Of a DNA stretch of 64,000 nucleotides, positions 10,318-58,794 are shown piece by piece. The stretch covers positions 1-64,000 of the forward strand of contig JANXDZ010000001.1 of NCBI GenBank assembly GCA_025059075.1. Reading direction: 5' to 3'. How positions within the stretch are numbered: the first letter of the stretch is position 1; each line of letters starts with the position of its first letter. Source of the stretch: Sulfolobales archaeon (GTDB lineage: Archaea; Thermoproteota; Thermoprotei_A; Sulfolobales; Desulfurococcaceae). A program made the translations under genes and the position numbers. Under the pieces are notes generated by a model, which was not told where the DNA came from, made no database searches, and saw only the letters and a program-made list of their open reading frames with translations.

Positions 10318-10383
10318 GAGTAAAGCTTTTATAGTGAAGTATATAGTATATATATCGAAATATGTAAAATGGGTGGTAAATCC

Positions 10384-11028
10384 ATGTCTATTAGTGAAGC
10401 ATTTATAAACTCAATTCTAGAACTTGATGAAAGGAGGGCCATTGAACTAGCCAGGGTTAGAATTAGTGAAGGAGAAGATCCATTGAAGATACTTGAAGAA
10501 CTAAAAACAGCTGCTGAAAAAATAGGTGAAAAGTATGAGAGGGGGGAGTTCTTCATAGCAGACTTAGTAATGGCTGGAGAAATAATGAAGGAGATCTCGG
10601 AGCTCGTTAGACCAAGGCTTAGAGAACTTGGAAAAACTAGGGAACTCATAGGTAGGCTCGTCATAGGCACTGTTGAAGGAGATATCCACGATATTGGTAA
10701 GAACATTGTTGTAACTATGGCTGAAGCAGCTGGATTTGAAGTAATAGACCTTGGAGTAGATGTACCTCCATGGAAATTTGTAGAAGCAATAAAGCAATAT
10801 AAGCCAGACATAGTTGGAATGTCGTGTCTAATAACAATTGGAATAGAGTCTATGAAGAAGACTGTTGATGCAATAAAAGAAGCAGGCCTCAGAGATAAAG
10901 TAAGGATAATCATCGGGGGAGGGAGAGTAGATGAATACGCTAAAGAGTATAGTGGAGCAGATGCTTGGACAAACGATGCAGCGACAGGAGTAAAGAAAAT
11001 GATGGAGTGGATGAGGGAGAAGAGGTAG
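10384..11028 (+). CDS. Methyltransferase corrinoid protein (MtaC/MtbC/MtoC family)
   Basis: A cobalamin-binding methyl carrier of about 214 residues. An N-terminal helical cap domain (about residues 1-85) is followed by a Rossmann-like B12 domain. The cobalt-ligating motif DIHDIGK is intact, with His at about residue 102, followed by the expected SCLITIG and GGG segments. It accepts a methyl group from a substrate-specific methyltransferase and hands it to a second methyltransferase. GGGTGG at 10371 sets the ATG at 10384 as start rather than the in-frame ATG at 10369. It is the first gene of the cluster, followed after 5 bases by a UroD-fold methyltransferase. The order corrinoid protein, UroD-type methyltransferase, RACE activator is that of Mto/O-demethylase systems. 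The exact donor is unknown. Confidence 0.9.
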   Translation: MSISEAFINSILELDERRAIELARVRISEGEDPLKILEELKTAAEKIGEKYERGEFFIADLVMAGEIMKEISELVRPRLRELGKTRELIGRLVIGTVEGDIHDIGKNIVVTMAEAAGFEVIDLGVDVPPWKFVEAIKQYKPDIVGMSCLITIGIESMKKTVDAIKEAGLRDKVRIIIGGGRVDEYAKEYSGADAWTNDAATGVKKMMEWMREKR

Positions 11029-11033
11029 AGGAA

Positions 11034-12296
11034 TTGAAGGAGCTAGTGGATGAAGTTAGAGAGAGACAGCTGAAGGAGCCTGAGGCTATAGCTAGTGAGA
11101 GACTTAGGAGATTTGAGGAAGCAGTTGAACTCAAGGAGCCTGATAGAGTCCCACTAATGTTCTTTACATGCGGCCACTTGCTTGGAAAGTACTATAAGTT
11201 GAGTGAAATATACTTCAACTACGATGTTGCAAAAAAAGCTGTTTCAAGAGCATTCCAAGACTTCCCCTCAGACATATTCATTGCAGTACCAGCAGCTGAA
11301 GGATTCATTCTTTCACTAGCCTTCTCAAACCACCCTGACTTAGCTCCATTCGTCCGATTCCTAACTGGACCTATGCACGACGTTCTTGGAGACAAGTACA
11401 CTAAGTGGCCTGGGAGAGAGCTAAGTGAAGACAAGCCTTTCCAATTCATAGGAGGGGAATTCATGAGTCCAGAGGAGTACGGTAAGTTTACTGAAGACCC
11501 CGTGGGCTTTATAAATGAAGTACTTCTACCAAGAGTTTGCGTAAACTTAAGTAAACCCGGTGCTGCAAGATACGCTACTTTAGCTAAGCTAGGTATGGCT
11601 GCTAAAGACTACTTCAATGCATTGATAGGCATGGGGATTGAGTTAGCTAAATTAGGAGCTCCATCGCTTTCAGTAACGTTTGCATATACTCCACTAGACA
11701 TTATAGGGGACTTCTTAAGGCACCCTACTCACGTAATGATTGATCTACGTAGATATCCAGATAAAGTTAAGCAAGCAACTGAAGTACTTGTTGAACCAAT
11801 AATTAAAGTAGCTCTAGCTTTAAAGCCTGTTGGAGCGAAGTACGCATTCATACCACTGCACTTAAATGAAATGCTTTCTCCAAAGCTCTTCAAAGAGTTC
11901 TACTGGCCGTACTTAAAGAAAGTGATCGTGGAGTTGTACAATAATGGGATAAAGTCCTTCGTATTATTTGAAGGAGATCACACGCCTCACTTAGAGACTG
12001 TTCTCGAGCTACCTAAGGGGTGGGGCATTGGAGTATTTGAAAGAGCTGATATTAGGAGAGTTAGAAAAGTCTTGAAAGGACACACATGCATTGCTGGAGG
12101 AGTACCCGTATCACTGCTGCAGCAAGCTACTCCTGAGAAAATAGATAGCTATGTAAGAGAACTCATTAGAGATGTAGCTCCTGAAGGAGGATTTGTAATA
12201 AGCCCCAGTGTTGCTGAAATAGCTGCTGAAGTACCTAACGCTAACTTAAGGGCTTTAATAAATGCAGTACTAAAGTACGGTGAATACAGGAGGTAG
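11034..12296 (+). CDS. UroD-fold methyltransferase, MtoB/O-demethylase-like (copy 1)
   Basis: A 420-residue uroporphyrinogen-decarboxylase-superfamily protein. The family opening (RLRRFEEAVELKEPDRVPLM) and closing segment (PNANLRALINAVLKYGEY) are both clear. The zinc-thiolate motif of MtaA/MtbA-type enzymes (His-X-Cys with a later Cys) is absent: the corresponding places read FEGDHTPHLETV and ISPSVAEIAAEV. That argues against methylation of coenzyme M and for a substrate-side methyltransferase such as MtoB or bacterial O-demethylase subunit B. The long open frame begins earlier, but TTG at 11034, 5 bases after the corrinoid gene and behind GAGG, avoids a long overlap. A tandem paralogue follows. 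The substrate could be a methoxylated aromatic or another methyl donor. Confidence 0.82.
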   Translation: MKELVDEVRERQLKEPEAIASERLRRFEEAVELKEPDRVPLMFFTCGHLLGKYYKLSEIYFNYDVAKKAVSRAFQDFPSDIFIAVPAAEGFILSLAFSNHPDLAPFVRFLTGPMHDVLGDKYTKWPGRELSEDKPFQFIGGEFMSPEEYGKFTEDPVGFINEVLLPRVCVNLSKPGAARYATLAKLGMAAKDYFNALIGMGIELAKLGAPSLSVTFAYTPLDIIGDFLRHPTHVMIDLRRYPDKVKQATEVLVEPIIKVALALKPVGAKYAFIPLHLNEMLSPKLFKEFYWPYLKKVIVELYNNGIKSFVLFEGDHTPHLETVLELPKGWGIGVFERADIRRVRKVLKGHTCIAGGVPVSLLQQATPEKIDSYVRELIRDVAPEGGFVISPSVAEIAAEVPNANLRALINAVLKYGEYRR

Positions 12297-12371
12297 TGGG
12301 GTAGTTAAAGCTTTAACAAATCTTTTTCCCTCTCTCCAATAGATCTAGATGAGTTTGTGAAAGGTGTGAAA

Positions 12372-13655
12372 GTGATTGAGAAAGAGAAGACTCCTGAAGA
12401 ACTCCTTAGTGAAAGAAGGGATAGGTTTGAGAAAGCTTTAAAGGGCTTGAGGCCCGATAGAGTGCCATTCCTACCACTATTCCACTACTTTCCAGCTAAG
12501 TACGTGGGCTTAAGCTATGCTGAATACTCATTGGATTACCAGAAGTTTAGTGGAGCAGTGTTAAGAGTCTACCAAGACTTTGACTTTGATGCTGTTGGCT
12601 TAGCACTGCCTGGAGCAGCCATGACACTTCCATTAAACATTATCTTCACTAAAACACACCCCGATTTAGCTGTAAACATATTTACTATAGCAAGGGCTTT
12701 CCACGACATATTGATGGATAAGTACACTAAGTGGCCTGGGAGAGAGCTTTCACCTAATGCTCCCGCTCAGTTCCTTGGCGGAAGATTCATGGATGTTGAG
12801 GAATATGATGAACTTGCAAGAGACCCCATAAGCTTCATTGCAATGAAGATTATTCCACGTGCTTATGGAGCTCTTAAGGAGCCTGCTTCACCTGAAGCAT
12901 ATGGAGCATTAATTAAGTTTGGAAGTGAGTCAAGTAAATTTGCCTCAGCCTTCATGGACTTAATGATTAATTTAAGGAAGCTTGGATACCCTATATACCC
13001 CATTGGACTTGGTTATGCACCACTGGACTTCATAGCTGATTACTTAAGGCATGTAACGCACACTCTCACAGATCTCTATAGATATCCAAGTAGAGTTAAG
13101 GCTGCTTTAGATTCTCTTACTCCATTAATATCAGAGTGGAGCAGGATTACTATTTCTCTACCGCCTGAAGCCCTGGCATCATTTGATGTAAAGACTCCAT
13201 TAGTATTCATACCACTGCACTTAAATGAAATGCTTTCTCCAAAGCTCTTCAAAGAGTTCTACTGGGAGCCATTGAAAAAAGTAGTCGTAGACCTCATAAA
13301 TTCTAGAGCTATTCCATGGATCTTCTTTGAAGGCGACTACACGCCATTCCTAGAGACTCTTCTTGAACTACCTAAGGGCAGTGTAGTAGCTTACTTCGAG
13401 AGAACCGATCTTAGAAAAGTTAGAAGAGTCTTAGGAGATCATGTCATAGTCATGGGCGGCCTCCCGCCATCACTATATATACTTGGAGCACCGGAGAAAG
13501 TATATGAAGAAACATGTAGACTCTTAAATGAAGTTAAGGAACCCGGGGGCTTCATATTTAGTGGAAGCGGTGTTTCAGGAGTACCTGATGAAGCTAGGCC
13601 GGAGAACTTGAGGGCTGCTATTAATGCTTTAAATAAGTGCGGTGTATACCAATAA
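12372..13655 (+). CDS. UroD-fold methyltransferase, MtoB/O-demethylase-like (copy 2)
   Basis: Paralogue of the preceding gene, about 427 residues, with the same overall architecture: opening RRDRFEKALKGLRPDRVPF, central FFEGDYTPFLETL in place of the zinc His-X-Cys motif, and a closing RPENLRAAINALNKCGVY. Again the late Cys of the zinc site is missing, so a substrate methyltransferase is likelier than a CoM or thiol methyltransferase. The two copies differ over most of their length but share stretches of identical DNA. GGTG at 12363 favours GTG 12372 over GTG 12357. The 75-base gap before it contains a T-rich run, so it may be partly independently expressed. It could have a different substrate range, or form a heteromer with copy 1. 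Confidence 0.82.
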   Translation: MIEKEKTPEELLSERRDRFEKALKGLRPDRVPFLPLFHYFPAKYVGLSYAEYSLDYQKFSGAVLRVYQDFDFDAVGLALPGAAMTLPLNIIFTKTHPDLAVNIFTIARAFHDILMDKYTKWPGRELSPNAPAQFLGGRFMDVEEYDELARDPISFIAMKIIPRAYGALKEPASPEAYGALIKFGSESSKFASAFMDLMINLRKLGYPIYPIGLGYAPLDFIADYLRHVTHTLTDLYRYPSRVKAALDSLTPLISEWSRITISLPPEALASFDVKTPLVFIPLHLNEMLSPKLFKEFYWEPLKKVVVDLINSRAIPWIFFEGDYTPFLETLLELPKGSVVAYFERTDLRKVRRVLGDHVIVMGGLPPSLYILGAPEKVYEETCRLLNEVKEPGGFIFSGSGVSGVPDEARPENLRAAINALNKCGVYQ

Positions 13656-13763
13656 CACTTCAACAATGAATATAGGCTATTAATAGCTTAACACAAGTGT
13701 TTTTTAGATAGCTTAGCTCATTTAACACATTACTAAGGCACTCAGGCTTTAGGTGTAGTTAAC

Positions 13764-15644
13764 GTGGTTTTAGTAACTATAGAGCCTTATGGCAGTAGAG
13801 TTGAAGTCTGTGAAGGTTCAACTCTACTGCATGCAATTAGGCTAGCTGGATTAAGCATAACTTCACTATGCGGTGGATTTGGCTCATGTGGGAAGTGTAG
13901 AGTGATTGTAATCAGTGGATCCAGTAAGTTAAGTGAACTATCTCAATTAGAGGTAAAGCATTTAAGGGACAGCGAAATTAGAGCTGGCTATAGACTCTCA
14001 TGTCAAGTGAGAGCCTTCAATGATGTAACTCTATACATTCCTGTAGAGAGTAGAGTTAGAGTTGGTGAAAGAAGGGCTGTAACCAGGGGATTTATGAGAA
14101 AAGTTGAGGTAAAGCCCTTAGTCAAGAAGATTAGAGTACAGCTTCCCCCTCCATCACTACGCGATCAGAGGTCAGACTTAGATAGACTCATAGACTCATT
14201 GAAGACTGTAGTTGAAGAAAGTAAAGTCGAAGTAGACTACGAGGTTTTAAAGAACTTGCCCACTATACTTAGAGGGAGTAATTGGGATGTAGCCAGCGTA
14301 CTATGGGGTAGGGAGATAGTATCTATTGAGCCGGGCGATGCATTTAGTGAATCCTATGGAGTAGCAATAGATGTAGGTACTTCTAAAATAGTTGTACACT
14401 TAATAGACCTTACTACTGGTGAAGTAAGAGCTGTAGGTCTTGCTGAAAACCCTCAGTTAGCGTACGGCGAAGACATCGTATCTAGAATGACTTTTGCAAA
14501 CATTAGTGAGGATAACTTAAGGACTCTACAGCTCTTATTGATTAACTCAATTAATGAGCTGGTGGAAAGCGTCTGTAGGCAAGCTGGAGTAAGCATCAAT
14601 AGAGTCTATGAAATAGTTGTTGTAGGAAATACCGCCATGCACCACTTCCTCCTAGGATTAAAGACGAAGTACTTAAGTGCATCACCATTCACGCCCGTGG
14701 TTGGGAGAACTATTAGCTTTAAAGCAAGAGATCTAGGGGTAAAGAGCAGCACTGGAGCTATAGTAACTTTTCTACCAGTAATAGCTGGATTCGTAGGTGC
14801 AGATGCTGTAGCAGATGCACTAGCAACAGGAATACTAAGTAGGGAAGACAACGTAGTTCTACTTGACGTAGGGACAAACACTGAAATATTCGTGGGAAAC
14901 TCTGAGAGAATGCTTGTTTGTTCAGCTCCATCAGGCCCAGCACTTGAAGGAGCTCATATAAGGCATGGAATGAAGGCAGTTGATGGAGCAATAGAGGAAG
15001 TAAGCATAAGTAGTGATGGAGAAGTTGAGTATAGAGTAATAGGGGATGCAAAGCCTAGAGGAATATGTGGCTCAGCAATAATAGACATAGTGGCTGAACT
15101 CTATAGAAATAACTTCATAGATTCTCGCGGAAAGTTTAGGAGAAGTTATGGATTAAAGAGGCTTAGGAAGAGCGTTAACGGATGGGAGTATGTAATTGCG
15201 TGGAGTAATGAGACATCTATAGGAAAGGACATAGTTGTCTCAGAAAAAGACATTAGTGAAGTAATGTTAGCTAAAGCAGCCATATATGCTGGAATATCAG
15301 TATTACTAAGGAGGAGGGGGTTGAGTGAAAGAGACATTAGTGAAATAATAGTTGCCGGCTCTTTTGGAACTCACATAAACCCCCTTAGCGCCAGGATCAT
15401 TGGTATTATACCCGATGTCCCGGGCGATAAAGTAAAGTTTGTTGGAAATACAGCAATCATGGGAGCAGACATGGTTCTGCTGTCAATTGACGCTAGATCT
15501 GAAGCGGAGAAAGTAGCTAGAACAATTGAGTATGTAGAGCTTTCAGCAGATCCATACTTCAGTGAAGAATTCTCATCCGCTCTCCTGATACCCCATAAGG
15601 ATGTGGAAAAATTCACATTAGTTAAAGCATTGCTAAATCAGTGA
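13764..15644 (+). CDS. Reductive activator of corrinoid protein (RACE, MtoD-like)
   Basis: A 626-residue activator that re-reduces accidentally oxidised Co(II) corrinoid to Co(I), using ATP. The N-terminal ferredoxin domain has a plant-type [2Fe-2S] set: Cys36, Cys42, Cys45 and Cys80 (LCGGFGSCGKC, then LSCQV). A linker (about 95-195) precedes an ASKHA ATPase domain with phosphate loops AIDVGTSKIVVHLID and LLDVGTNTEIF and the late IIVAGSFGTHI. This is the RACE family, not the 8-iron RamA of methylamine systems. Length is typical. Start GTG at 13764 behind AGGTG. It follows the two methyltransferase genes after 108 bases and ends facing the MtrH-family gene. Its presence shows the corrinoid system must cycle through Co(I). 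Confidence 0.9.
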   Translation: MVLVTIEPYGSRVEVCEGSTLLHAIRLAGLSITSLCGGFGSCGKCRVIVISGSSKLSELSQLEVKHLRDSEIRAGYRLSCQVRAFNDVTLYIPVESRVRVGERRAVTRGFMRKVEVKPLVKKIRVQLPPPSLRDQRSDLDRLIDSLKTVVEESKVEVDYEVLKNLPTILRGSNWDVASVLWGREIVSIEPGDAFSESYGVAIDVGTSKIVVHLIDLTTGEVRAVGLAENPQLAYGEDIVSRMTFANISEDNLRTLQLLLINSINELVESVCRQAGVSINRVYEIVVVGNTAMHHFLLGLKTKYLSASPFTPVVGRTISFKARDLGVKSSTGAIVTFLPVIAGFVGADAVADALATGILSREDNVVLLDVGTNTEIFVGNSERMLVCSAPSGPALEGAHIRHGMKAVDGAIEEVSISSDGEVEYRVIGDAKPRGICGSAIIDIVAELYRNNFIDSRGKFRRSYGLKRLRKSVNGWEYVIAWSNETSIGKDIVVSEKDISEVMLAKAAIYAGISVLLRRRGLSERDISEIIVAGSFGTHINPLSARIIGIIPDVPGDKVKFVGNTAIMGADMVLLSIDARSEAEKVARTIEYVELSADPYFSEEFSSALLIPHKDVEKFTLVKALLNQ

Positions 15645-15676
15645 GGAGTTGTTGGGAAAGCCAGTTGATTAAGTAA

Positions 15677-16555
15677 TTAAAGTTCTATTAGTAACTCCCT
15701 TATTTTAGCTAAGTATCTATAGGAAGTCGTTATCACGTATGTAGCTGGGAATACTTCTCCGCATGCTTCTATTGGTCCATAGAGTACGAAGTCTGCTGAT
15801 AAAACTATTGGAGTCATATTTGATGCTAGTTCAGCTGCCCTCAACCCATTGTCTCCATAGGTTTCCCTAAACTTCTTCCTCATTAGTGAAACAGCATTGT
15901 GAGCTCCACAACCACATGGGAGGCCTAGTGTTGACTTTACGTAAATTATTGTTCTTGAGGCAGCCGATAGACTTGGTATATCTATTACAAAAGTATCTAT
16001 TAGTGGAGCCGTTACGCCAGCTTTTTCAGCTTTAACTAGTAGTTCTTTTAGAGCATTTAGTCTAGCATCTACATCCATTACTTTGCTAGTGTAGAGAAGG
16101 AGTATTGCTGATTTAGCTCCATACTCCTTAAGTATGTTGAGTTCTTCATCCTTTGATCTAGGAGTTAATGAATTGAAGATCACTCTATTTAATAAACCAA
16201 CTTCTTTAGCATAACTAAATGCAGCCTTCATTACTTCTGGAGTTGGGACATCGACTAGGAATGGTTTATCAGTTGCTTTAGATACAAAATCCATGTAGTT
16301 AACTACGGCTTCTGGAGATTGAGCAACTACATCAATTAAACCAGGGATCTTAGTTTTATCTGAAGCTTCTTCTTGATGCTTTATTAGTTCCTCAGCTATT
16401 TCTTTATCAAATTCTCCCTTCTTTTCATCCCTTACTATCCTATGTTTATGATAAAATATTGAGCCTATGAGCACTGGGGGATTCTCACTTCTTAAACCCC
16501 CGATCTTAATTCTACATATTTCAAAGACTTTTTGCTCAACTTTAAACTTGAACAT
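15677..16555 (-). CDS. MtrH-family methyl-corrinoid:H4MPT methyltransferase
   Basis: A 292-residue TIM-barrel protein of the MtrH family, which binds tetrahydromethanopterin and moves its N5 methyl group to or from a corrinoid. The start (KFKVEQKVFEICRIKIGG), GSIFYHKHRIVRDEKKGEFD and the closing GLPCGCGAHNAVSL segment are strongly MtrH-like. No other Mtr subunit (MtrA-G) is in the window, so this looks like a free-standing MtrH homologue as used with Mto-type or other methylotrophic corrinoid proteins to deliver methyl groups to H4MPT. It sits convergent with the RACE gene, 32 bases away, on its own transcript. It would connect the methyltransferases to Mer, Mtd, Mch, Ftr and Fwd encoded downstream. 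The reverse direction (methyl-H4MPT to corrinoid) is possible. Confidence 0.9.
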   Translation of the reverse strand: MFKFKVEQKVFEICRIKIGGLRSENPPVLIGSIFYHKHRIVRDEKKGEFDKEIAEELIKHQEEASDKTKIPGLIDVVAQSPEAVVNYMDFVSKATDKPFLVDVPTPEVMKAAFSYAKEVGLLNRVIFNSLTPRSKDEELNILKEYGAKSAILLLYTSKVMDVDARLNALKELLVKAEKAGVTAPLIDTFVIDIPSLSAASRTIIYVKSTLGLPCGCGAHNAVSLMRKKFRETYGDNGLRAAELASNMTPIVLSADFVLYGPIEACGEVFPATYVITTSYRYLAKIRELLIEL

Positions 16556-16616: not shown

Positions 16617-17297
16617 TTAGTATAGAGCTTTCACTACAATGCCTTTATGAATAGCTGTAGCAATTAGTGCACCGCTTACTCCAAGTGATTTTAAGTACAA
16701 TACGTCTTCCTCACTTCTTACTCCTCCTCCAACAATTAGTTCGCCTTTGAATACTCCTTTAACTAACGCTATTGCCTTCGTGTTTAAACCAGTCAGTGTA
16801 CCAACTCTACTTAAGTCTATTAAGAGGATCTTTGTTGGACTAGGTTTTACGAGTTCTACTACAGCTTTCTCTAAGGATACGCTAGCATTCCTAAAGACTA
16901 CTCTATCTCCATAGATATCAATGCTCATAGCTCTATTCCTAACTAAATCTACTTCACTTGGGTAATCTAAGTACTCAGTTCCAATAACGTACTCTAGGAG
17001 ACCTCTATCAGTGAGCTCAATACCTCTCCTGCCTAAGTCTGCTAAAACTCTAAAGCCCTTCATAATGGCTAAGTCAACTACCCATTCATTGCTTCCACAT
17101 CCCATTATTGAATCAAGATCTGCTATGTAAATTCTCCTAAACCCCAGCCTCCATAAACTATCTATAGCTTCCCTAGGCTCAGGGCTTGAGCATATAGAGC
17201 TATTTGTAAGAGGTTTATATAGCTCCCTCTTGCCAGCTATAGCGTGGACGACTAAGCCCTTCATTACATCAATTACTGGTATTACCTCTATCCCCAT
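16617..17297 (-). CDS. HisA/HisF-like TIM-barrel protein of the C1 gene neighbourhood
   Basis: A 226-residue protein with HisA-type phosphate-binding patterns: the start IEVIPVIDVMKGLVVHAIAG, a middle IYIADLDSIMGCG and the late GELIVGGGVRSEEDV. True HisA is a little longer and would sit with his genes; here the neighbours are methanofuran genes. HisA-like proteins of unknown function are found near H4MPT and methanofuran genes in methanogens and methylotrophs. I therefore infer a role in one-carbon cofactor biosynthesis, not histidine biosynthesis. It is divergent from mfnF, with promoters in the shared 80-base gap. Confidence 0.75.
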   Translation of the reverse strand: MGIEVIPVIDVMKGLVVHAIAGKRELYKPLTNSSICSSPEPREAIDSLWRLGFRRIYIADLDSIMGCGSNEWVVDLAIMKGFRVLADLGRRGIELTDRGLLEYVIGTEYLDYPSEVDLVRNRAMSIDIYGDRVVFRNASVSLEKAVVELVKPSPTKILLIDLSRVGTLTGLNTKAIALVKGVFKGELIVGGGVRSEEDVLYLKSLGVSGALIATAIHKGIVVKALY

Positions 17298-17378: not shown

Positions 17379-18461
17379 ATGAACGTTGTTGGACTCGACA
17401 TTGGTGGAGCGAACATTAAGGCTGTAAAGATCTCTTTTAAGGATGGTGAAGTAGTTCTAGAGAAAGTGCTTAGGACATACTTCCCAGTGTGGATTCATGG
17501 AGGAAGATCTATTGGCGGAAAGCTAGTGGAGCTTAAGCACGCATTAGACTTAGAGCCCAGTGAGTATTACGTTGGAGCATGCATGACTGCTGAGCTCAGT
17601 GATGCATTTAGAGTTAAGAGTGAGGGAGTTAGAGTAATTGTAGAAAGTGTAGAGGAAGCATTCCACGACTCTTTATTAAACTTCTACGTAACTACTGAAA
17701 TGAGCCTTGTAGATAGCCGTAGAGCGATCTCCAATTACTTAAAGGTTGCTGCAGCTAATTGGGCTGCAACAGCTTGGCTACTGGAGAAGCAAATGCCCTC
17801 ACGAGGAATTATAAATGCTATACTCATAGATGTAGGTAGCACTACAACTACTATAATTCCCTTAGTAAATGGAAAAACAGTAGTACGTGGATACACTGAT
17901 CCAGAGAAGTTGACTTACGGCGAACTAGTTTACACAGGCGTACTGAGAGGGAACGTTGCAACAATTGTAGACAAAGTACCGTATAAGGGTTTCTTAACTA
18001 GAGTCTCCTCAGAGAGATTTGCTTTAACTGGAGACGTACACTTAGTGCTTGGATACATCGATAGCAGTAGCTATACAACTGAGACAGCTGATGGAAGAGG
18101 TGTATCGATGAGAGAAGCAGTTGAAAGATTGTCTAGAGTTCCATGCGCTGACGTAGATATGATGAGCGTGCGTGAAGTAGTTGAAGTAGCTCGATACATT
18201 TATGAAGCACAAGTATTTAAAGTATTTGAAGCACTAATGCAAGTGAGAACGTGGATTGCATCAATGAACGTAGACTTAAATGACTTCACTGTAATAACTG
18301 CTGGAATAGGCAAGCATTTAGCTATTGAAGCAGCTGAGAGAGCGGGCTTCAATAAGTTCATTGAGGTAGATAAGTTAGTTGGCTCACAAGTTTCAAGCGT
18401 GCTGCCCGCTTATGCCTCAGCATTAATGGCTTTAGACAAGGCTTTAAGAGGGGCTTACTGA
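17379..18461 (+). CDS. mfnF: Methanofuran biosynthesis protein MfnF
   Basis: A 360-residue ASKHA-fold protein related to hydantoinase/oxoprolinase, beginning NVVGLDIGGANIKAVKI with an ATP phosphate-loop and a second AILIDVGSTTTTIIPLV. In methanogens MfnF joins the phosphorylated aminomethylfuran made by MfnE to gamma-glutamyltyramine, building the core of methanofuran. MfnE follows immediately (stop and TTG start separated by one base), and MfnB is convergent after it, which supports the assignment. The ATG has GGAGGA about 6 bases upstream. Confidence 0.9.
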   Translation: MNVVGLDIGGANIKAVKISFKDGEVVLEKVLRTYFPVWIHGGRSIGGKLVELKHALDLEPSEYYVGACMTAELSDAFRVKSEGVRVIVESVEEAFHDSLLNFYVTTEMSLVDSRRAISNYLKVAAANWAATAWLLEKQMPSRGIINAILIDVGSTTTTIIPLVNGKTVVRGYTDPEKLTYGELVYTGVLRGNVATIVDKVPYKGFLTRVSSERFALTGDVHLVLGYIDSSSYTTETADGRGVSMREAVERLSRVPCADVDMMSVREVVEVARYIYEAQVFKVFEALMQVRTWIASMNVDLNDFTVITAGIGKHLAIEAAERAGFNKFIEVDKLVGSQVSSVLPAYASALMALDKALRGAY

Positions 18462-18462
18462 A

Positions 18463-19113
18463 TTGAAGAGGGTTGTTGTAAAAGTTAGCGGCAATCTAAT
18501 AACACACCTTGATGAAGCGAGGGAGCTGTTGAGTAAAGTATACTCATACGTTAGAGAACACTTAATTGTATTAGTACCTGGTGGAAGTGTATTTGCAGAT
18601 TTTGTTAGAAGCCTTCAAGGTAGCTTAGGGTTTAGTGATGAAGTAGCCCACTGGATGGCTATAAAATCCATGGAAATCTACGGAATCTACCTCAGTAGCT
18701 TACATAAGTCCTTAAAGCCTGTGGAGTATGTAGATGAAGCTTATGAAGCCTTCCATGAAGGCAGAGTTCCACTATTAATGCCTTATAGAGTTCTGAGAGA
18801 GTTAAATAAGTTGCCTAAGACGTGGTCTGTGACGAGTGACTCCATAGCTATATACGTAGGGCACCTCATAGAGGCCGACATAGTTGCATTAAGCAAAGTA
18901 GTGGATGGATTAAGGGGGCCTGATGGTCGTTTAATTAAATTATTGAAGGCAAGTGAGGTTCCTCGAGGCCAGAGTGTAATAGATGAATATGCTGCTCACT
19001 TAGCTAAGGAATACTGCTTAAAAGTAGCTGTATTCAACGGGCTTAAGCCATGGGTCCTCGACGACATACTTTACTCTAGAGAGGGGCTTTATACACTCAT
19101 CCTCCCTGAGTAA
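18463..19113 (+). CDS. mfnE: [5-(aminomethyl)furan-3-yl]methyl phosphate kinase MfnE
   Basis: A 216-residue amino-acid-kinase-fold protein. It starts RVVVKVSGNLI (the AAK phosphate-binding strand and glycine loop), followed by LIVLVPGGSVFADFVR and a later TSDSIAIYVGHLIEADIVALSKVVDG nucleotide-binding region. MfnE adds a second phosphate to the aminomethylfuran phosphate. Linked one base after mfnF, which uses its product. TTG start. Its 3' end overlaps the convergent mfnB by 25 bases. Confidence 0.88.
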   Translation: MKRVVVKVSGNLITHLDEARELLSKVYSYVREHLIVLVPGGSVFADFVRSLQGSLGFSDEVAHWMAIKSMEIYGIYLSSLHKSLKPVEYVDEAYEAFHEGRVPLLMPYRVLRELNKLPKTWSVTSDSIAIYVGHLIEADIVALSKVVDGLRGPDGRLIKLLKASEVPRGQSVIDEYAAHLAKEYCLKVAVFNGLKPWVLDDILYSREGLYTLILPE

Positions 19114-19811
19114 GTAAGCAGTATGTTCTTTAATTCAGCCACTAGTTCTCTAGAAACTCTACTTACTCTACCCCCCTTGCATGCAGCTCCCCTTATGCCT
19201 ATAACGTCAAAGCCTAACTTAATGCAGTCAGGTATATGCTCTCTTCCCAAGCCTCCAGCTATTGCTTTTAGTAAGTTGAGCTTTCCTGCTTCTTCAACGA
19301 ACTCCTCTAGGTAGCTTCTTGAGAGGAAGTTGAATGTATTCTTTCCATCCTTTATTAGTGTATCAATCATGACTCCATGGGCTTTCACTTCTTTCGCTAA
19401 CCTAATTACTTCAAGAGGTTCAATACACCCAGACCTAGAGTAATCAGCGTATCCAGCGAGAACTAGCTTAGGCTTACTTACGTAATTCACTTGCTTAGAG
19501 ACTTCTGAAGCTATCAATAGGCATTTACTTACATCGCCTGAAGCCAAGCCAGCCTTTACATAGTTTACTCCAGTTAATGCAGCTGCATAAGCTATGTACT
19601 TTAATGAATTACTATATTCGCTTAAGTCCCCTATAGCTACGCTGACTTCTCTTAATCCACTAACACTCAACACTACTTCTCTAACTACATCTAGATCCGG
19701 TAGTCCTAAGCTCCCCTTAGATGGATCCTTAACATCAATTACATCTGCTCCTCCATAGAGAGCATCACTTAATTCATCTAAATGCCATACAGTTATGAGT
19801 AGCTTAACCAC
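19089..19811 (-). CDS. mfnB: (5-formylfuran-3-yl)methyl phosphate synthase MfnB
   Basis: A 240-residue TIM barrel that condenses two glyceraldehyde 3-phosphate molecules to form the furan ring of methanofuran. The catalytic pattern IDVKDPSKGSLG with Lys28 and the second conserved Lys at 86 (NYVKAGL) are in place, and the C-terminal phosphate-binding IRGAACKGGR is present. Length matches the family. It is convergent with mfnE and divergent from the MobA-like gene, between two other genes of C1 cofactor synthesis. Confidence 0.9.
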   Translation of the reverse strand: MVKLLITVWHLDELSDALYGGADVIDVKDPSKGSLGLPDLDVVREVVLSVSGLREVSVAIGDLSEYSNSLKYIAYAAALTGVNYVKAGLASGDVSKCLLIASEVSKQVNYVSKPKLVLAGYADYSRSGCIEPLEVIRLAKEVKAHGVMIDTLIKDGKNTFNFLSRSYLEEFVEEAGKLNLLKAIAGGLGREHIPDCIKLGFDVIGIRGAACKGGRVSRVSRELVAELKNILLTYSGRMSV

Positions 19812-24127: not shown

Positions 24128-24186
24128 TAATTTACTACTGCTTCTGGACGTAAAGAATTCACTAAAGTCTCTAGCGAGAACTTTAA

Positions 24187-37682: not shown

Positions 37683-38831
37683 TTGAAGATTTTAATTACA
37701 GAGTACTTTACTAGTACTTTCTCACCTAAAAGCATGCACATGGATATTCTTGTAGAAGGATACTCCATGGCTTATACAGCCGCTAAGCTACTTAAGTTAG
37801 CTAATCAAGAGGTTTCACTAACGATCAGTAGATATTTAGATGTAGTGGAAGAGGAGGCTATATACATTGATCCACATAACTACTATGATTTCTTAAGTAA
37901 GTGCTTAGTGAATTACGATGGAGTAATTGCAGTAGCTCCACCAGCTGAGTTAATTAAAGTCTCAGAAATCGCTGGAGGCAAACTCATAGGATCTCCTCAT
38001 GATTTAACTAAGTTATTTTCAAATAAATACACAACTTACCTAGCCTTATCTAAGTGTGGGATAAGAGTTCCTGAAACTATTCTCATTAAAAGAGGCTTTA
38101 AGTGCTCTAAGAGTGAATTAAGCGAAGTTGAATTACCTTTAGTTGTTAAACCAGCAATGCTTGCTGGATCGGAGTGTGTATACGTAGCCCATAGCTTAGA
38201 TGAGTTATGTTCTTATGCTTATGAGGCTGTTAAATGCGATCCTTTTGGTGAAGCAGTTGTACAGAGATACATTAGGGGAGTTCATGGAAGTATATCAGTA
38301 GTGTACTCTAAGTTTGGCGTAGCTCTATTTTCATTGAATCTCCAGTTGATTGGACGAGTTGGGAGTTCATTAAAGTACTTCGGTGGAGTTCTCCCAATAA
38401 GAGATGAACGCATAGTCAATGAAGCTAGAACACTACTTGAAAAACTCTTCTCTAAGCACCCATTGCTAAGGGGCTTCATAGGGTTAGACGTAGTTTGGAA
38501 TGATGAAGGAATTTACGTAGTTGAAGTAAATCCACGCCTTACAACTTCTATACTTGGAGTAGCAGAACTCTATCCTGAATTAGGAAGCGTATTGGTGAAT
38601 TCGTGGACTGGAGCAAGGCTGGAAGCCCGCTCAACTTTCCTAGGAGACGTAGTTAATGGCTATTCATACTATCTCCTAAGCTACATCGATGAGAGTTATT
38701 TAAGCAGTAAAGTAATAGAGCTTCCACAGTGCTCTAGAAAAATCACTGTAGGAGTTAGAGAGACTCTACATGAAGCACTTAACGTAGCTAAGACTACTGT
38801 TAATAAGGTAGCTGAACTAGCTCTAGGGTAG
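37683..38831 (+). CDS. mfnD: Tyramine-L-glutamate ligase MfnD-like ATP-grasp protein
   Basis: A 382-residue ATP-grasp enzyme. The substrate loop and ATP site are visible: KLIGSPHDLTKLFSNKYTTY, LVVKPAMLAGSECVYV and metal-binding FIGLDVVWNDEGIYVVEVNP. The closest characterised function of such an archaeal ligase beside F420 and methanofuran genes is MfnD, which joins glutamate to tyramine in methanofuran synthesis. It ends 18 bases before cofE. A TTG start. Related ATP-grasp ligases could act on another amine, so the specific name is inference from context and general similarity. Confidence 0.72.
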   Translation: MKILITEYFTSTFSPKSMHMDILVEGYSMAYTAAKLLKLANQEVSLTISRYLDVVEEEAIYIDPHNYYDFLSKCLVNYDGVIAVAPPAELIKVSEIAGGKLIGSPHDLTKLFSNKYTTYLALSKCGIRVPETILIKRGFKCSKSELSEVELPLVVKPAMLAGSECVYVAHSLDELCSYAYEAVKCDPFGEAVVQRYIRGVHGSISVVYSKFGVALFSLNLQLIGRVGSSLKYFGGVLPIRDERIVNEARTLLEKLFSKHPLLRGFIGLDVVWNDEGIYVVEVNPRLTTSILGVAELYPELGSVLVNSWTGARLEARSTFLGDVVNGYSYYLLSYIDESYLSSKVIELPQCSRKITVGVRETLHEALNVAKTTVNKVAELALG

Positions 38832-38849: not shown

Positions 38850-39608
38850 ATGAGGAGAATAGAAGTAATAGGATTAAGGTATGATAGAGAAATAGTTAAA
38901 GGAGATAGCGTTAGTGAAGCAGTCATTGAAGCCATTAAAAGCAATGGAGTTAAATTAAGGGATGGCGACATAATTGTCGTCACACATAAAGTTGTATCAA
39001 AAGCTGAAGGGAGGGTCGTTGACTTAAATAGCGTTAATCCAAGCGGGAAAGCCTTAGAAATAGCTAGAGAAACAGACAAGGACCCTAGGCTAGTTGAGCT
39101 AATACTCCGGGAGTCTAGGGAAATCCTTAAGATCAGTGGCGGTCACATAATAGTCTTAACTAAGCATGGAATAGTCTGCGCTAATGCTGGAATAGATAAG
39201 TCAAATGCTGGTGGAGAAAGTTATGTAGTCCTACTTCCAGAAGACCCAGATCGCTCGGCGAGGGAAATAAGGTATAGAGTAATGGAGGAATTTGGCGTTA
39301 GAGTTGCAGTAATAATATCGGATACTTACGGCAGGCCGTTTAGAGAAGGGATGGTGAATCAAGCAATAGGTTTTGCTGGTATAAATCCATATAGAAATTA
39401 CATAGGTAAGCCAGATAGAGATGGATATATAATGAGGGTGACGAGAGTAGCTATAGTAGATGAAGTTGCTGGAGCAGCTGAACTAGTGATAGGGCAAACT
39501 ACTGAGAATACTCCATTCGCAATAGTTCGTGGAGTGGATTACGAGGAGTGTAGCGAGTGCAGCTTCAAGGACTTAGTCATGCCGAAGGAGAAGTGGCTGT
39601 TCCAATAG
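38850..39608 (+). CDS. cofE: F420-0:L-glutamate ligase CofE
   Basis: A 252-residue enzyme that adds gamma-linked glutamates to F420-0 using GTP. The signatures LRDGDIIVVTHKVVSKAEGR and VCANAGIDKSNAGG are typical, as is VIISDTYGRPFREGMVNQAI. Full length for archaeal CofE. Start behind a GGGGGG site. It follows the MfnD-like gene and precedes an FrhB-like gene on the plus strand. Confidence 0.94.
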   Translation: MRRIEVIGLRYDREIVKGDSVSEAVIEAIKSNGVKLRDGDIIVVTHKVVSKAEGRVVDLNSVNPSGKALEIARETDKDPRLVELILRESREILKISGGHIIVLTKHGIVCANAGIDKSNAGGESYVVLLPEDPDRSAREIRYRVMEEFGVRVAVIISDTYGRPFREGMVNQAIGFAGINPYRNYIGKPDRDGYIMRVTRVAIVDEVAGAAELVIGQTTENTPFAIVRGVDYEECSECSFKDLVMPKEKWLFQ

Positions 39609-39672: not shown

Positions 39673-40749
39673 TTGGAGAAAGCTGTCGTAAGACTACTTA
39701 ACGTTAGTGAAAGCATTGAGCGAGGCTTTTGCTCGTTCTGTGGAGCTTGCATCGCTGTCTGTCCATTCAATAATTTAAGCTATGAGTTAAGCAATCCAAG
39801 TAAGCCAACGCTAGGAGACTCCAAGTTCTGCAAGAAGTGTAAACAAACTCTATGTGTAAGCGTGTGTCCACAACTGAATGTCCCCAGAGAGCTTTTCTCA
39901 ATTAATACTTATGTATTTAGCGAAGCATATGAAGCTAGGTCAACGATACCTGAAGTAATTAAAGTTGCGCAAGACGGGGGGGCTGTAACGAGTCTATTGA
40001 TCGCTGGCCTTAAGCTCGGGCTATTTGATGCAGCTCTAGTTACTTCAAGAGATGAAGTGTGGCGCCCTAAACCATCTATAGCAGTAATGGATTGTGAAGT
40101 TATTGAAGCAGCTGGAACAAAATACGTTTATTCACCGACTCTTTTAGCATTAAAGGACTTGGCCTCAAGAAGGGGCGTAAAGTCTGTAGCAATTGTTGGA
40201 CTGCCGTGTCAAATAATGGCTGTTGAGAAAATGAAGAGGCTTAGCCTAAAGCTATTTGAAGGCCTAAGCTTAGTGAGCATAGGGCTATTTTGCACTCACA
40301 ACTTCACTTATGAAAAGATCCTTAGCTTAACTAATGATTTGAAAATAAAAATTGGGGACTTAACTAAGATCTCTATAAAGAAGGGGAAGTTAATTTTTAC
40401 GACAAAGGATGGTGGAAGCGCTCTATATTCATTAAGTAAGGCGTCTAAAGACATGAGGACTGCATGTATGCAGTGCCCAGAATTCATCTCTCCTTACGCA
40501 GATCTAAACATAGGCAGCATAGGGAGCTCTGAAGGTTGGAGCACAGTGTTAGTTATGAATAGTATTGGTAGAAGAATCCTTGCAAAAGCAGTTGACTGGG
40601 GCTTTATTGAAGCTAAGCCTTTAAGCATTGAAGGGAGGGATGCAGTATTTAAATTCATTGAAAAGAAGGTTCGTGAATCCCTTGAAAAATATGGAGAGTA
40701 CACTAGGAATTATGGAGATATAATTAACGCTGATCCATCTAAGTGGTGA
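39673..40749 (+). CDS. FrhB-like F420-interacting Fe-S flavoprotein
   Basis: A 358-residue protein of the FrhB/FdhB family, which carries FAD and Fe-S centres and exchanges hydride with F420. Cysteines at the start (CSFCGACIAVCP and CKKCKQTLCVSVCP) should hold [4Fe-4S] clusters; the later MACMQC-like segment (TACMQCPEFISPYADLNIGS) and the FAD domain follow. There are no hydrogenase or formate dehydrogenase subunits next to it, so it is probably an F420:ferredoxin or other F420 oxidoreductase. This would serve to recycle F420H2 from Mer and Mtd. TTG start. Confidence 0.85.
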   Translation: MEKAVVRLLNVSESIERGFCSFCGACIAVCPFNNLSYELSNPSKPTLGDSKFCKKCKQTLCVSVCPQLNVPRELFSINTYVFSEAYEARSTIPEVIKVAQDGGAVTSLLIAGLKLGLFDAALVTSRDEVWRPKPSIAVMDCEVIEAAGTKYVYSPTLLALKDLASRRGVKSVAIVGLPCQIMAVEKMKRLSLKLFEGLSLVSIGLFCTHNFTYEKILSLTNDLKIKIGDLTKISIKKGKLIFTTKDGGSALYSLSKASKDMRTACMQCPEFISPYADLNIGSIGSSEGWSTVLVMNSIGRRILAKAVDWGFIEAKPLSIEGRDAVFKFIEKKVRESLEKYGEYTRNYGDIINADPSKW

Positions 40750-41638: not shown

Positions 41639-42625
41639 CTATTTAAACGATGGAATGACTTCCTCAGCTATTGTTTTTAAAGCCTCCTTCTTTTTCTTAC
41701 CTATAGGAGATCCGAAGACTATGTGAGTTACACCTAGTTTAACCAGCTTATTTAACGAGTCTATGCATTCACTAGGAGTTCCATATATTGAGAATGCCTG
41801 CAGCATTTCCTCAGTTACATTAGAGAACGCTGTCTTAAAGTCCCCCCTACTTATTGCAGATGCTATTACTTGAGCTTTCTCAAAGCTTACTCCATGTCTC
41901 TCCAGAGCATTTCTTGGAGCACCTGCAACTATGAATGCAACTATCGGTAGTGCAGCTTTTCTCGCTTCATTCCTGTCCCTATCTATTGAAAAACATGTGT
42001 ATGCAACTATGTCTAACTTATCAAATCTATCTCCAGCTGCCTCTTTGATTATTCCAACTGCTTGCTCATAGTCCTTTGGATTTGATGCATTTATTAAGAC
42101 TCCATCACCTATTGAAGCAGCTAGCTTAAGCATTCTTGGTGCTTGAGCACCAATGTAGATAGGTATTTCATGTAGAGGCTTGTAATTTAGCTTAACTCCT
42201 CTTACTTTAATGAATTCTCCATTGAAGTCTACCGTCTCCCCCTTTAACAACTTCCTTATTACAGTAACGCTCTCTTCAATTGCCTTCAGTGGAGTCCTCC
42301 ACTCTATGGATAGTTTTTCAAGGGTAGCTCTATCCCCAGCCCCTATGCCTAAGAGAGCTCTTCCACCTGATACTTCGTCTAGAGATGCTATTGCTGAAGC
42401 AGTCCATGCTGGGTTTACGATATATGGATTAGTGACTCCTGGGCCTAGGAGTATCCTATTAGTCCTTAACGCTATGCTGGACAGCGTTATGTAGACATTC
42501 CTATTGTTGTAGTGGTCGGTTATCCAAACAGTGTTTAACCCTAATTGCTCAGCTATAATGGCTAAGTCAACGAGCTCACTTATGGTGGTTGAAGGAACTA
42601 GCTCTAGACCAAACCTAAGTGGCAT
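41639..42625 (-). CDS. mer: F420-dependent methylene-H4MPT reductase Mer
   Basis: A 328-residue luciferase-like TIM barrel. It begins MPLRFGLELVPS and contains the family-defining VWITDHYNNRNVY and LLGPGVTNPY, with a later GDGVLINASNP. Mer interconverts methylene-H4MPT and methyl-H4MPT with F420, the step connecting the MtrH-type methyltransferase to oxidation. The longest frame runs to 42709, but AGGTGA three bases upstream and the family start make ATG 42625 the likely initiation site. It precedes the CofE paralogue on the same strand. Confidence 0.95.
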   Translation of the reverse strand: MPLRFGLELVPSTTISELVDLAIIAEQLGLNTVWITDHYNNRNVYITLSSIALRTNRILLGPGVTNPYIVNPAWTASAIASLDEVSGGRALLGIGAGDRATLEKLSIEWRTPLKAIEESVTVIRKLLKGETVDFNGEFIKVRGVKLNYKPLHEIPIYIGAQAPRMLKLAASIGDGVLINASNPKDYEQAVGIIKEAAGDRFDKLDIVAYTCFSIDRDRNEARKAALPIVAFIVAGAPRNALERHGVSFEKAQVIASAISRGDFKTAFSNVTEEMLQAFSIYGTPSECIDSLNKLVKLGVTHIVFGSPIGKKKKEALKTIAEEVIPSFK

Positions 42626-42853
42626 TAAATCACCTAAAACTATATTATTCATGGAGAACGCTATTATTCTTTTCCCTTTGCCTCCAAACGAGTTCTTCAT
42701 CACTCTCACCTCCTTTAATTGCTTTATTCAGGGACTCCCCGACGGCTGTTGAACCTAATGGAGTGAGGCTTCTAGAGAAACAGAAGTCTTTAAATCCATT
42801 GATGTACTCATTCACTACTTAACTAGGAGCTATTTCCATTTTAGGGAAAAGCT

Positions 42854-43633: not shown

Positions 43634-44587
43634 TTGAAGGTATTAGCATTATCAGGTGGTACGGGAACTCCAAAGCTTTTAGAAGGTTTTGAGGGAGTTA
43701 TAGGCCAAGAGAACATCAGTGTTGTAGTTAATACATCTGATAACATCTGGCTAAATGGATTATACATAGCTCCAGACATTGACTCAATAACATATCTCTT
43801 TTCAAGACTACTAGACGTTGAGCGTGGCTGGGGAATTAAGGGAGATACCTTTAACTCATTTGAAGCACTAAAAACTTATGGAGCACAGGACTGGTTCTAC
43901 ATAGGTGATAGAGACTTAGCTACTCATCTATATAGAACTCACTTATTGAATAAGGGGTATTCACTGACTAGTGTAACTAAGTACATAGCGTCTAAGCTAG
44001 GCGTTAAAGCCTCTGTGCTACCCATGTGTAATGAACACGTTGAGGCTAGAGTACTGACGGATCATGGGGATTTACATATACAGGAGTACTTAGTTAAACA
44101 TAAGCTGAAGCCAAAGGTATACGGCATAACGTTTAGTGGAATAGATAAGGCAAAGGCACCTCAAGAAGTCCTCAAAGCCATTGATGAAAGTGAACTAGTA
44201 GTCATAGGTCCAAGCAACCCCATAAATAGCATTGGCTCCATATTAATGGTGCCTGGAATTAGGGAGAAAGTAGTTGAAAAGAGGAGGAAGGGGACACCGA
44301 TCATAGCTGTATCGCCAATAATTGGAGGAAGGCCTCTAAAGGGTCCAGCCCACATATTCCTAAGCGCACTAGGCTATGAAGCATCTTCATTTGGAGTAGC
44401 TGAAGTATATGCTGATGTAGTAACTGCAATAATAGTGGATAGAGTTGATGAAATGGAGGCATCAAGGATAAGGAGCAAGCTTGGCTTAACGACTTACATC
44501 GAGGACATAGTTATGAAAGATCTAGAGGGTAAGGTTAAGTTAGCTAAAAGAATCCTCGATATAGCTAAGGAACTAGGCGGGCATTAA
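43634..44587 (+). CDS. cofD: F420 2-phospho-L-lactate transferase CofD
   Basis: A 317-residue enzyme that joins the activated phospholactate (or enolpyruvate) unit to Fo, forming F420-0. The glycine-rich start VLALSGGTGTPKLLEGF and VVVNTSDNIWLNGLYIAPD, GPSNPINSIGSIL and SPIIGGRPLKGPA are diagnostic. It follows cofC. Its stop overlaps the convergent ECF EcfT gene by 23 bases. Fo synthase (CofG/CofH) is not in the window. Confidence 0.95.
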   Translation: MKVLALSGGTGTPKLLEGFEGVIGQENISVVVNTSDNIWLNGLYIAPDIDSITYLFSRLLDVERGWGIKGDTFNSFEALKTYGAQDWFYIGDRDLATHLYRTHLLNKGYSLTSVTKYIASKLGVKASVLPMCNEHVEARVLTDHGDLHIQEYLVKHKLKPKVYGITFSGIDKAKAPQEVLKAIDESELVVIGPSNPINSIGSILMVPGIREKVVEKRRKGTPIIAVSPIIGGRPLKGPAHIFLSALGYEASSFGVAEVYADVVTAIIVDRVDEMEASRIRSKLGLTTYIEDIVMKDLEGKVKLAKRILDIAKELGGH

Positions 44588-47036: not shown

Positions 47037-47038
47037 TG

Positions 47039-47599: not shown

Positions 47600-47699
47600 T
47601 ATTTTTGCTAAAGCTCACTCCGTATTTAAGCGTAAGTGCTTGAGTTAACATTAATTAATATACTAGCCATGAGTACTATAATTAGTGGAGTGTGTCGCT

Positions 47700-48629
47700 A
47701 TGTTAAAGGTAGGTGAAGTAATTATTGAAGACACTTTTGCAGAAGCATTCCCAATGTACGCTACTAGAATAGTTGTTACAGCCATTAACCGTAACTGGGC
47801 TTTAACAGCTGCTCGCAATGCCACTGGCTTTGGAACATCAATAATAGGGTGCCCCGGTGAAGCAGGCATAGAGGCATTTATTTCGCCGAAAATAACGCCT
47901 GACGGACGTCAGGGAGTAGCTATACAAATATACCACAGCGATCCTGGGAGCCTTAAGCTAGTTACAATAATGAGAGTTGGGCAGTCTATTCTAACGTGTG
48001 CAACTACTGCTGCATTTGATGGACTTCCAAGAGTTAGGAGGAGGATGAGTGTTGGTAGAGCGCTAGCGAAGTTTGGCGATGGATTTGAGAAAGAGGACTC
48101 TATCAGTGGAAGAAGGGTGTGGAGAATACCAGTTATGGAAGGAGAGTTCGTAATTGAAGACTCCTTTGGTGTAGTAAAGGGAGTTGCAGGCGGCAACATA
48201 CTCATACTAGCTAAGACGCAGAGCTCTGGCCTACTTGCTGCTGAAAAATCAGTGAAAGCCATACGCCAATACTCAAAGTACGTAGTGACTCCATTCCCTG
48301 GGGGGATAGTGCGTTCAGGATCTAAAGTCGGCTCACTTAAGTATCCAAAGCTCAGAGCTACAACAAACCACTTGTACTGCCCAGCCATTAAGGATATAGT
48401 TAAGGATACACGCATTCCTACAGAAGTAAGCTCCGTCTATGAAATAGTCATAAATGGACTTAGGAAGGAGGATGTGCTTAAATCCATGGGGATAGCCATT
48501 AAGGCAGCTGCAAGCGTTCCTGGAGTAGTGAAAATTGATGCAGGGAATTATGGTGGAAAGCTAGGCCCATATCACTTTTATCTAAGAGATGCACTGGAGT
48601 CAGTAAAGGAAGTTGATGTAAAGGTTTAA
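47700..48629 (+). CDS. ftr: Formylmethanofuran:H4MPT formyltransferase Ftr
   Basis: A 309-residue enzyme that moves a formyl group between methanofuran and H4MPT. The start VGEVIIEDTFAEAFPMYATR, the middle GFGTSIIGCPGEAGIEAF and DGRQGVAIQIYH are conserved Ftr patterns. ATG 47700 is preferred to GTG 47685 because the family starts here. First gene of the ftr-mtd-fwdDB-fwdA-fwdC-mch run, 54 bases before mtd. Confidence 0.95.
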   Translation: MLKVGEVIIEDTFAEAFPMYATRIVVTAINRNWALTAARNATGFGTSIIGCPGEAGIEAFISPKITPDGRQGVAIQIYHSDPGSLKLVTIMRVGQSILTCATTAAFDGLPRVRRRMSVGRALAKFGDGFEKEDSISGRRVWRIPVMEGEFVIEDSFGVVKGVAGGNILILAKTQSSGLLAAEKSVKAIRQYSKYVVTPFPGGIVRSGSKVGSLKYPKLRATTNHLYCPAIKDIVKDTRIPTEVSSVYEIVINGLRKEDVLKSMGIAIKAAASVPGVVKIDAGNYGGKLGPYHFYLRDALESVKEVDVKV

Positions 48630-52996: not shown

Positions 52997-53001
52997 ATAA
53001 C

Positions 53002-58782: not shown

Positions 58783-58794
58783 TTGGTGGAGCAA

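Follow-up and report, generated by a model that had tools for sequence, protein, structure and literature searches.

The window analysed here is a stretch of 64,000 nucleotides at the start of a 396-kb contig (JANXDZ010000001.1) from the 1.34-Mb, 92% complete genome of a Sulfolobales archaeon (GCA_025059075.1). The host is a Desulfurococcaceae-type crenarchaeon of the Desulfurococcus/Ignisphaera group, placed by GTDB in the Sulfolobales. Five contiguous genes at 10369-16555, all of them intact open frames, encode corrinoid-dependent methyl-transfer proteins of the kind known from the Mto system of methoxydotrophic archaea:

10369..11028, plus strand: corrinoid protein (corC, MtoC-like), B12-binding_2 and B12-binding domains (PF02607+PF02310), DxHxxG intact
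10965..12296, plus strand: UroD1, UroD-fold corrinoid methyltransferase (PF01208), assigned to the CdmB branch (MtoB-like)
12357..13655, plus strand: UroD2, second UroD-fold corrinoid methyltransferase (PF01208)
13764..15644, plus strand: RACE corrinoid reductive activator (MtoD-like), Fer2 and RACo linker, middle and C-terminal domains
15677..16555, minus strand: stand-alone MtrH-like methyltransferase (MtoA-like), PF02007 MtrH

An earlier, sequence-only reading of the window had recognised a corrinoid protein with an intact cobalt-binding motif, two UroD-fold methyltransferases and a RACE activator with a [2Fe-2S] domain, and these assignments are borne out. The motif of the corrinoid protein reads D-I-H-D-I-G at residue 105, PF01208 is found twice, each time in an intact frame, and the Pfam domains of the activator are accompanied by the plant-type [2Fe-2S] set of cysteines (36, 42, 45 and 80) in its N-terminal domain. 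The corrinoid protein is 76% identical to that of Baldrarchaeum (locus L062) and 81% identical to the homologue on contig C18 of G001, a second species of the same genus. The five genes had also been described as one cluster. This is correct as regards contiguity, the MtrH-family gene included, but MtrH is encoded on the minus strand, where it converges with the activator gene, and therefore lies within the cluster but outside the transcription unit of the other four genes. The annotated start of UroD1, a TTG at 10965, is inside the corrinoid gene; the true start is probably among the GTG/TTG codons at 11007-11046, which agree better with the homologues. NCBIfam models place the corrinoid protein, the activator and MtrH in broad methylamine, betaine and acetogen families, with no substrate-specific cut-off reached. 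The MtrH protein is above the cut-off of the 'MtrH family protein' model and below that of the Mtr-complex subunit; it is the sole MtrH of this genome, and the MtrH-like structure PDB 8z9u is near the cluster MtrHs. A third UroD gene (UroD3, contig C12), 59% identical to UroD1, is found elsewhere in the genome; its locus (L045, 8876-11489) has no corrinoid protein of its own, and a xylose-isomerase-like TIM barrel gene lies downstream.

In a search of the PDB, the only match to UroD1 (E 2e-65) and to UroD2 (E 2e-70), each at about 34% identity, is the Acetobacterium dehalogenans enzyme CdmB, a chloromethane:corrinoid methyltransferase (PDB 9rui; PMC13222342). CdmB is zinc-free and acts on haloalkanes, not on methoxyaromatics, and its closest characterised relative is MtoB, at 31% identity (PMC13222342). 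A profile built from 14 sequences gives CdmB an E-value of 1e-104 and hemE one of 0.004, a gap of about a hundred orders of magnitude. Neither UroD1 nor UroD2 reaches a curated cut-off (PRK06252, 54.6 bits of 244; hemE, 34 of 303; MtaA and MtbA lower). True uroporphyrinogen decarboxylases (hemE) and coenzyme M or thiol methyltransferases (MtaA/MtbA) are both rejected on these scores, and UroD1 and UroD2 do not have in common the H-X-C plus Cys arrangement that is conserved in zinc-dependent proteins like MtaA. The maximum-likelihood tree of 55 proteins, which included CdmB but not the MtoB sequences, groups UroD1 with UroD3 of the same genome and UroD2 with the UroD2 proteins of Ignisphaera (70-72% identity, as against 44% between UroD2 and UroD1). 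Together with CdmB these groups form a well-supported, corrinoid-linked set that excludes the order's other UroD proteins, while CdmB itself forms a long branch from an unresolved fork, outside the UroD1 and UroD2 clades. By profile scores and tree alike, the two proteins thus fall with neither hemE nor the thiol methyltransferases; a placement with either group would have been fatal to the proposal of the sequence-only reading. The AlphaFold2 model of UroD1 (pLDDT 88) has the UroD fold according to Foldseek, but the match is to the general fold alone (TM-score about 0.57) and is uninformative on substrate. Judged by sequence, UroD1 and UroD2 belong to the CdmB branch, within which this tree does not separate an MtoB from a CdmB placement. 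The earlier match of the cluster to MtoC, MtoB, MtoD and MtoA accordingly stands for the list of parts and for the CdmB/MtoB branch, and is not closed for the identity of MtoB specifically.

It is useful to compare the cluster with described systems. Firstly, the Mto system of Methermicoccus shengliensis (MtoABCD, PMC8630106) contains a corrinoid protein, two adjacent MtoB-type methyltransferases of 47-48 kDa, an MtrH-like second methyltransferase and a 68-kDa activator with an N-terminal [2Fe-2S] domain, and the order MtoC-MtoB1-MtoB2 is similar. The present cluster differs in its non-methanogen host, in the opposite strand of MtrH and in having no major facilitator superfamily (MFS) transporter alongside. 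The Mto clusters of Methermicoccus and Archaeoglobus combine this set of genes with MFS transporters (PMC8630106, PMC8359953); the transporter, usual in Mto but not known to be obligatory, is missing from the window cluster, and the other Mto parts are present by family. Secondly, Archaeoglobus fulgidus (AF_0006-AF_0013, PMC8359953) shares with our host the Mto-type genes, the complete methyl branch of the tetrahydromethanopterin (H4MPT) pathway, carbon monoxide dehydrogenase/acetyl-CoA synthase (CODH/ACS) and the absence of methanogenesis. It belongs to a different phylum and is a sulfate respirer, whereas here hydrogenases are the visible electron outlet (sulfate-reduction genes were not searched). 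Thirdly, the Cdm system of A. dehalogenans (CdmBCA, PMC13222342) resembles the cluster in its zinc-free UroD-fold methyltransferase, at 34% identity, and its corrinoid-protein partner, but its CdmA is an MtqA-type tetrahydrofolate enzyme where the window has an MtrH-family protein. Finally, the MtgBC/MtgA system of Bathyarchaeia (PMC10989822) likewise carries out archaeal O-demethylation, with the methyl group passing to H4MPT and the Wood-Ljungdahl pathway; its MtgB, however, is an unrelated methyltransferase of about 300 amino acids and not a UroD-fold protein.

The methyl-transfer cluster is accompanied in the window by the following pathway genes:

16617..17297, minus strand: HisA/HisF-related protein, adjoining methanofuran genes
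17379..18461, plus strand: MfnF-like H4MPT/methanofuran pathway protein
18463..19113, plus strand: MfnE-like kinase
19089..19811, minus strand: MfnB-like 4-(hydroxymethyl)-2-furancarboxaldehyde phosphate (4-HFC-P) synthase
37683..38831, plus strand: MfnD-like ligase
38850..39608, plus strand: CofE, F420-0:glutamate ligase
39673..40749, plus strand: FrhB/FpoF-like F420-reactive subunit
41639..42709, minus strand: Mer, methylene-H4MPT reductase
43634..44587, plus strand: CofD
47685..48629, plus strand: Ftr
48684..49535, plus strand: Mtd
49542..51278, plus strand: fused FwdD-FwdB
51275..52996, plus strand: FwdA
52993..53874, plus strand: FwdC
53867..54823, plus strand: Mch
54829..55743, minus strand: MptN-like ligase
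58783..59778, plus strand: core methionine synthase-like protein (core MetE, MetE catalytic domain only), HxC and distal Cys

Mer, Ftr, Mtd, Mch, FwdA, FwdC and the FwdD-FwdB fusion match curated NCBIfam models, as do the Mfn, Mpt and Cof genes, which confirms the set of Mer, Mtd, Mch, Ftr and Fwd previously read from the window. The fusion (49542-51278) is 578 amino acids long, and open reading frames of equal extent occur in G032, a member of the same family, and in G051. Two sets of energy-coupling factor (ECF)-type ATPase/CbiQ-like transporter genes (22115-25092 and 44565-47048) flank the one-carbon genes; uptake of cobalt or cobalamin is a possible function.

We did not find mcrA in this genome or in 98 relatives, nor mtrA in this genome or in 60 relatives, with positive search controls in both cases. 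A methanogen is therefore rejected, and the lack of Mcr and Mtr first seen in the window extends to the genome, where no full mcr/mtr set appeared. In contrast, CODH/ACS is complete: an operon (L118) encodes CdhA, CdhB, CdhC, CdhD and CdhE together with another activator, this one of the AcsV type. Of the 99 genomes screened, 10 have CdhC, the host and G001 among them. Both the H4MPT methyl branch and CODH/ACS are thus encoded, i.e. the archaeal Wood-Ljungdahl pathway. The genome also contains an ADP-forming acetyl-CoA synthetase (Acd, over its cut-off) and three NiFe hydrogenase large subunits, each with both Cys pairs; judged by eye, their contexts look like one cytosolic HydBGDA type and two membrane-bound types.

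Taking these observations together, we consider it probable that the cluster is an Mto-like corrinoid demethylation and methyl-transfer system feeding a complete Wood-Ljungdahl pathway, with an O-methyl compound as its most likely donor. In the proposed scheme, UroD1 and UroD2 would each bind a methyl donor, in the likeliest case a compound with an O-methyl group, and the methyl would be taken by the Co(I) of corC to give CH3-Co(III). The activator would return accidentally formed Co(II) to Co(I) in an ATP-driven reaction, and MtrH would move the methyl group from CH3-Co(III) to H4MPT. Methyl-H4MPT could then be oxidised to CO2 via Mer, Mtd, Mch, Ftr and Fwd, with electrons possibly leaving as H2 through the NiFe hydrogenases; alternatively, it could be joined with CO and CoA by CODH/ACS to form acetyl-CoA, for biomass or for acetate with a gain of ATP. 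Some of the methyl groups may also reach methionine via core MetE. Since CODH/ACS is complete and the ADP-forming synthetase is present, methyl-H4MPT has an outlet to acetyl-CoA as well as to CO2, and core MetE makes methionine a possible third outlet for the corrinoid-bound methyl. The earlier proposal that a non-methanogen uses methyl compounds thus holds for the demethylation parts and the lack of mcrA and mtrA, but oxidation to CO2 is not the sole simplest fate. In G032 and G037, which have UroD, MtrH, core MetE and Ftr but no CdhC, oxidation is the sole visible catabolic outlet.

The components of this scheme differ in strength. Gene content, domains, motifs, conservation, co-occurrence, the lack of mcrA and mtrA and the presence of CODH/ACS are observed; in which direction the methyl flows, that H4MPT accepts it and what the donor is are inferred. 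Corrinoid-mediated methyl transfer to H4MPT appears very likely on sequence grounds; that the donor is an O-methyl compound seems fairly likely; that it is specifically a methoxyaromatic, as the analogy with Mto suggests, has rather less than an even chance. The candidate donors are methoxyaromatics (Mto analogy), O-methyl sugars (neighbouring genes in relatives) and haloalkanes (nearness to CdmB).

The link to the H4MPT pathway is also seen across the order. Among 214 genomes screened for a strong UroD1/2 homologue and for Ftr, the former was found in 12, the latter in 15 and both in 11; Ftr is present in 11 of the 12 genomes with UroD1/2 and in 4 of the 202 without (Fisher p 2e-14, relatedness ignored). 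The sole exception, G041, is a finished genome of 1.88 Mb, probably that of Ignisphaera aggregans, and it has neither Ftr nor CdhC. At its locus (L105, 9282-11216) the UroD gene has two in-frame stops and corC is frameshifted; because corC is frameshifted too, recoding of the UroD stops is rejected. From these sequences, G041 appears to have lost Ftr and CODH/ACS with the UroD cassette decaying alongside. The cassette is gained and lost, yet it tracks the H4MPT pathway.

Equivalent clusters, often with an MFS transporter, are present in other Thermoproteota and in the Asgard archaeon Baldrarchaeum. The order is corC-UroD1-MFS-UroD2-MtrH-RACE-MtrH in Baldrarchaeum (L062), MtrH-corC-UroD-MFS-UroD-UroD-RACE in G498, corC-UroD-MtrH-RACE in G409, UroD-corC-RACE-MtrH in G302 and G367, and MtrH-UroD-corC in G317. 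Chance co-location is rejected, as the same parts adjoin one another in other lineages. In Ignisphaera, corC-UroD adjoins Mch-Fwd-Ftr and/or Mfn/Mpt genes (L101, L103) or an MFS transporter (L103, L106), and the MFS protein of the Ignisphaera cluster shares 64-67% identity with its counterparts in Baldrarchaeum and G498. Sequences of different phyla are intermingled in the UroD tree (Ignisphaera G051, for instance, groups with Bathyarchaeota G439), which indicates lateral spread. A contig scan with patterns close to the window's own subfamily gave 12 loci, none of them from Archaeoglobus or Methermicoccus, and a plasmid search gave one distant match, in Sporomusa termitida (24% identity).

Two further loci show other combinations of such genes. 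In G155 (L028, 4890-8976), MtrH, core MetE, a corrinoid protein and a different UroD family adjoin Mch-Fwd; this family is a second UroD lineage tied to the H4MPT pathway and occurs in Ignisphaera too. In G007 (L026, 2958-6034), MtrH is divergent from a corrinoid protein and an MttB-type-looking methyltransferase, with aminotransferases and an amino acid-polyamine-organocation (APC)-like transporter alongside, which is probably a quaternary-amine version of the same scheme.

Several points weigh against an Mto-like, O-demethylating role. The nearest solved relative, CdmB, lacks methoxyaromatic activity (PMC13222342), and no MtoB stands in the tree beside it. A homologue of the MFS transporter of the Ignisphaera cluster was not found in our host genome. 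As that genome is 92% complete, the absences reported here are not absolute. Some UroD relatives adjoin carbohydrate genes, which suits sugars as well as aromatics, and a divergent MtrH occurs elsewhere with core MetE, corC and RACE but no UroD, so that corC, MtrH and RACE could serve methionine synthesis and not catabolism.

The carbohydrate genes hint that the donors might be O-methylated sugars or glycosides and that the cluster might be linked to polysaccharide degradation, which we consider unlikely. A GH38 alpha-mannosidase gene directly follows coreMetE-RACE-corC-UroD in two genomes of the group, at L066 (10303-12912) and L067 (9568-12153), corC-UroD of a Bathyarchaeota (L061) has GalT-GalK downstream, the surroundings of UroD genes in G234 (L162) include apiosidase and GH35-like genes, and the host's UroD3 is followed by the TIM barrel gene described above. 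Other neighbourhoods, however, have MFS transporters or aldehyde:ferredoxin oxidoreductases instead, no sugar gene adjoins the window cluster, and carbohydrate genes are common in such genomes, the background rate not having been computed.

Less likely still is a main role of corC, MtrH and the activator in methionine synthesis, in which MtrH would pass the methyl of CO2-derived methyl-H4MPT to corC and core MetE would pass it on to homocysteine, with the UroDs as an accessory methyl source. The window does encode a core MetE with HxC and distal Cys, such enzymes are thought to draw methyl groups from corrinoid proteins (PMC7857596), core MetE-RACE-corC-UroD is contiguous in G032 and G037, and core MetE, corC, RACE and MtrH cluster without UroD in many related genomes. 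But the MtrH proteins of methionine-type clusters form a separate clade at 28-37% identity, a distance of 42 kb separates corC from core MetE in the window, and the distribution of UroD follows the H4MPT pathway. The methionine-type clusters themselves were seen in a dozen genomes retrieved from the order, Staphylothermus-type and others (L043, L044, L046-L052, L054-L056), as core MetE with corC, usually RACE, and the divergent MtrH (28-37% to the window's); the set looks like a corrinoid-dependent methionine synthase, and Ftr and CdhC are both absent from those of these genomes that were screened.

A haloalkane donor, with UroD1 and UroD2 as dehalogenases feeding methyl to corC in the same machinery, is improbable: CdmB is the only PDB relative of both proteins (34% identity) and lacks zinc (PMC13222342), in keeping with the absence of a shared MtaA-type set in UroD1 and UroD2, but MtoB is about as distant from CdmB (31%) as these two proteins are, so that distance cannot discriminate, CdmB branches outside both clades, and the second methyltransferase is MtrH-like, as in Mto, with no CdmA/MtqA-type enzyme beside the CdmB-like and corrinoid proteins.

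The region itself appears sound. G001 has RACE-MtrH-HisAF-MfnF-MfnE-MfnB-CofC in the same order as the window, at 80-89% identity, and GC is uniform across the region; a binning artefact is rejected on the gene order and pathway shared with this second species and on the uniform GC. At the syntenic site of G001, the corC-UroD1-UroD2 stretch has shrunk to a broken UroD2 end (L029, 13525-13945), and an intact corC-UroD-UroD set is on a different contig. A broken UroD2 remnant is also found in an Ignisphaera genome (L115, 9242-9834). Judging from these sequences, the second methyltransferase is repeatedly lost.

The order of Sulfolobus, Desulfurococcus and Ignisphaera is usually seen as one of fermenters, sulfur reducers or autotrophs using the 3-hydroxypropionate/4-hydroxybutyrate (3HP/4HB) and dicarboxylate/4-hydroxybutyrate (DC/4HB) cycles. 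The sequence-only reading had called methyl-compound use a notable physiology for a TACK-like archaeon. Such a physiology has precedents: methoxydotrophy in a non-methanogen has been published for Archaeoglobus fulgidus, and homologues of mtoABC from several TACK and Asgard lineages were described in 2021 (PMC8359953). H4MPT genes in Ignisphaera were noted in 2016 (PMC5020050). Our literature search, which left most subscription literature outside, turned up no account of Desulfurococcaceae or Ignisphaera in which demethylation clusters and a complete Wood-Ljungdahl pathway occur together. The system would thus be an Mto-like one of already known type in an unexpected host. More tentatively, and on balance doubtfully, we speculate that Desulfurococcaceae/Ignisphaera hyperthermophiles are at least facultative methyl-fed acetogens, whose complete H4MPT-type Wood-Ljungdahl pathway would be supplied through mobile UroD/corrinoid cassettes that also occur in Bathyarchaeia and Asgard archaea; the methyl might then come from O-methylated polymers of plants or microbes, and possibly from sugars rather than from lignin aromatics. 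G041, with its apparent joint loss of Ftr, CODH/ACS and the UroD cassette, is a natural experiment. The finding provides a testable role for the H4MPT genes of Ignisphaera (PMC5020050), and with a complete Wood-Ljungdahl pathway fed by demethylation in this group, methylotrophy or acetogenesis becomes a further possible way of life in hot springs.

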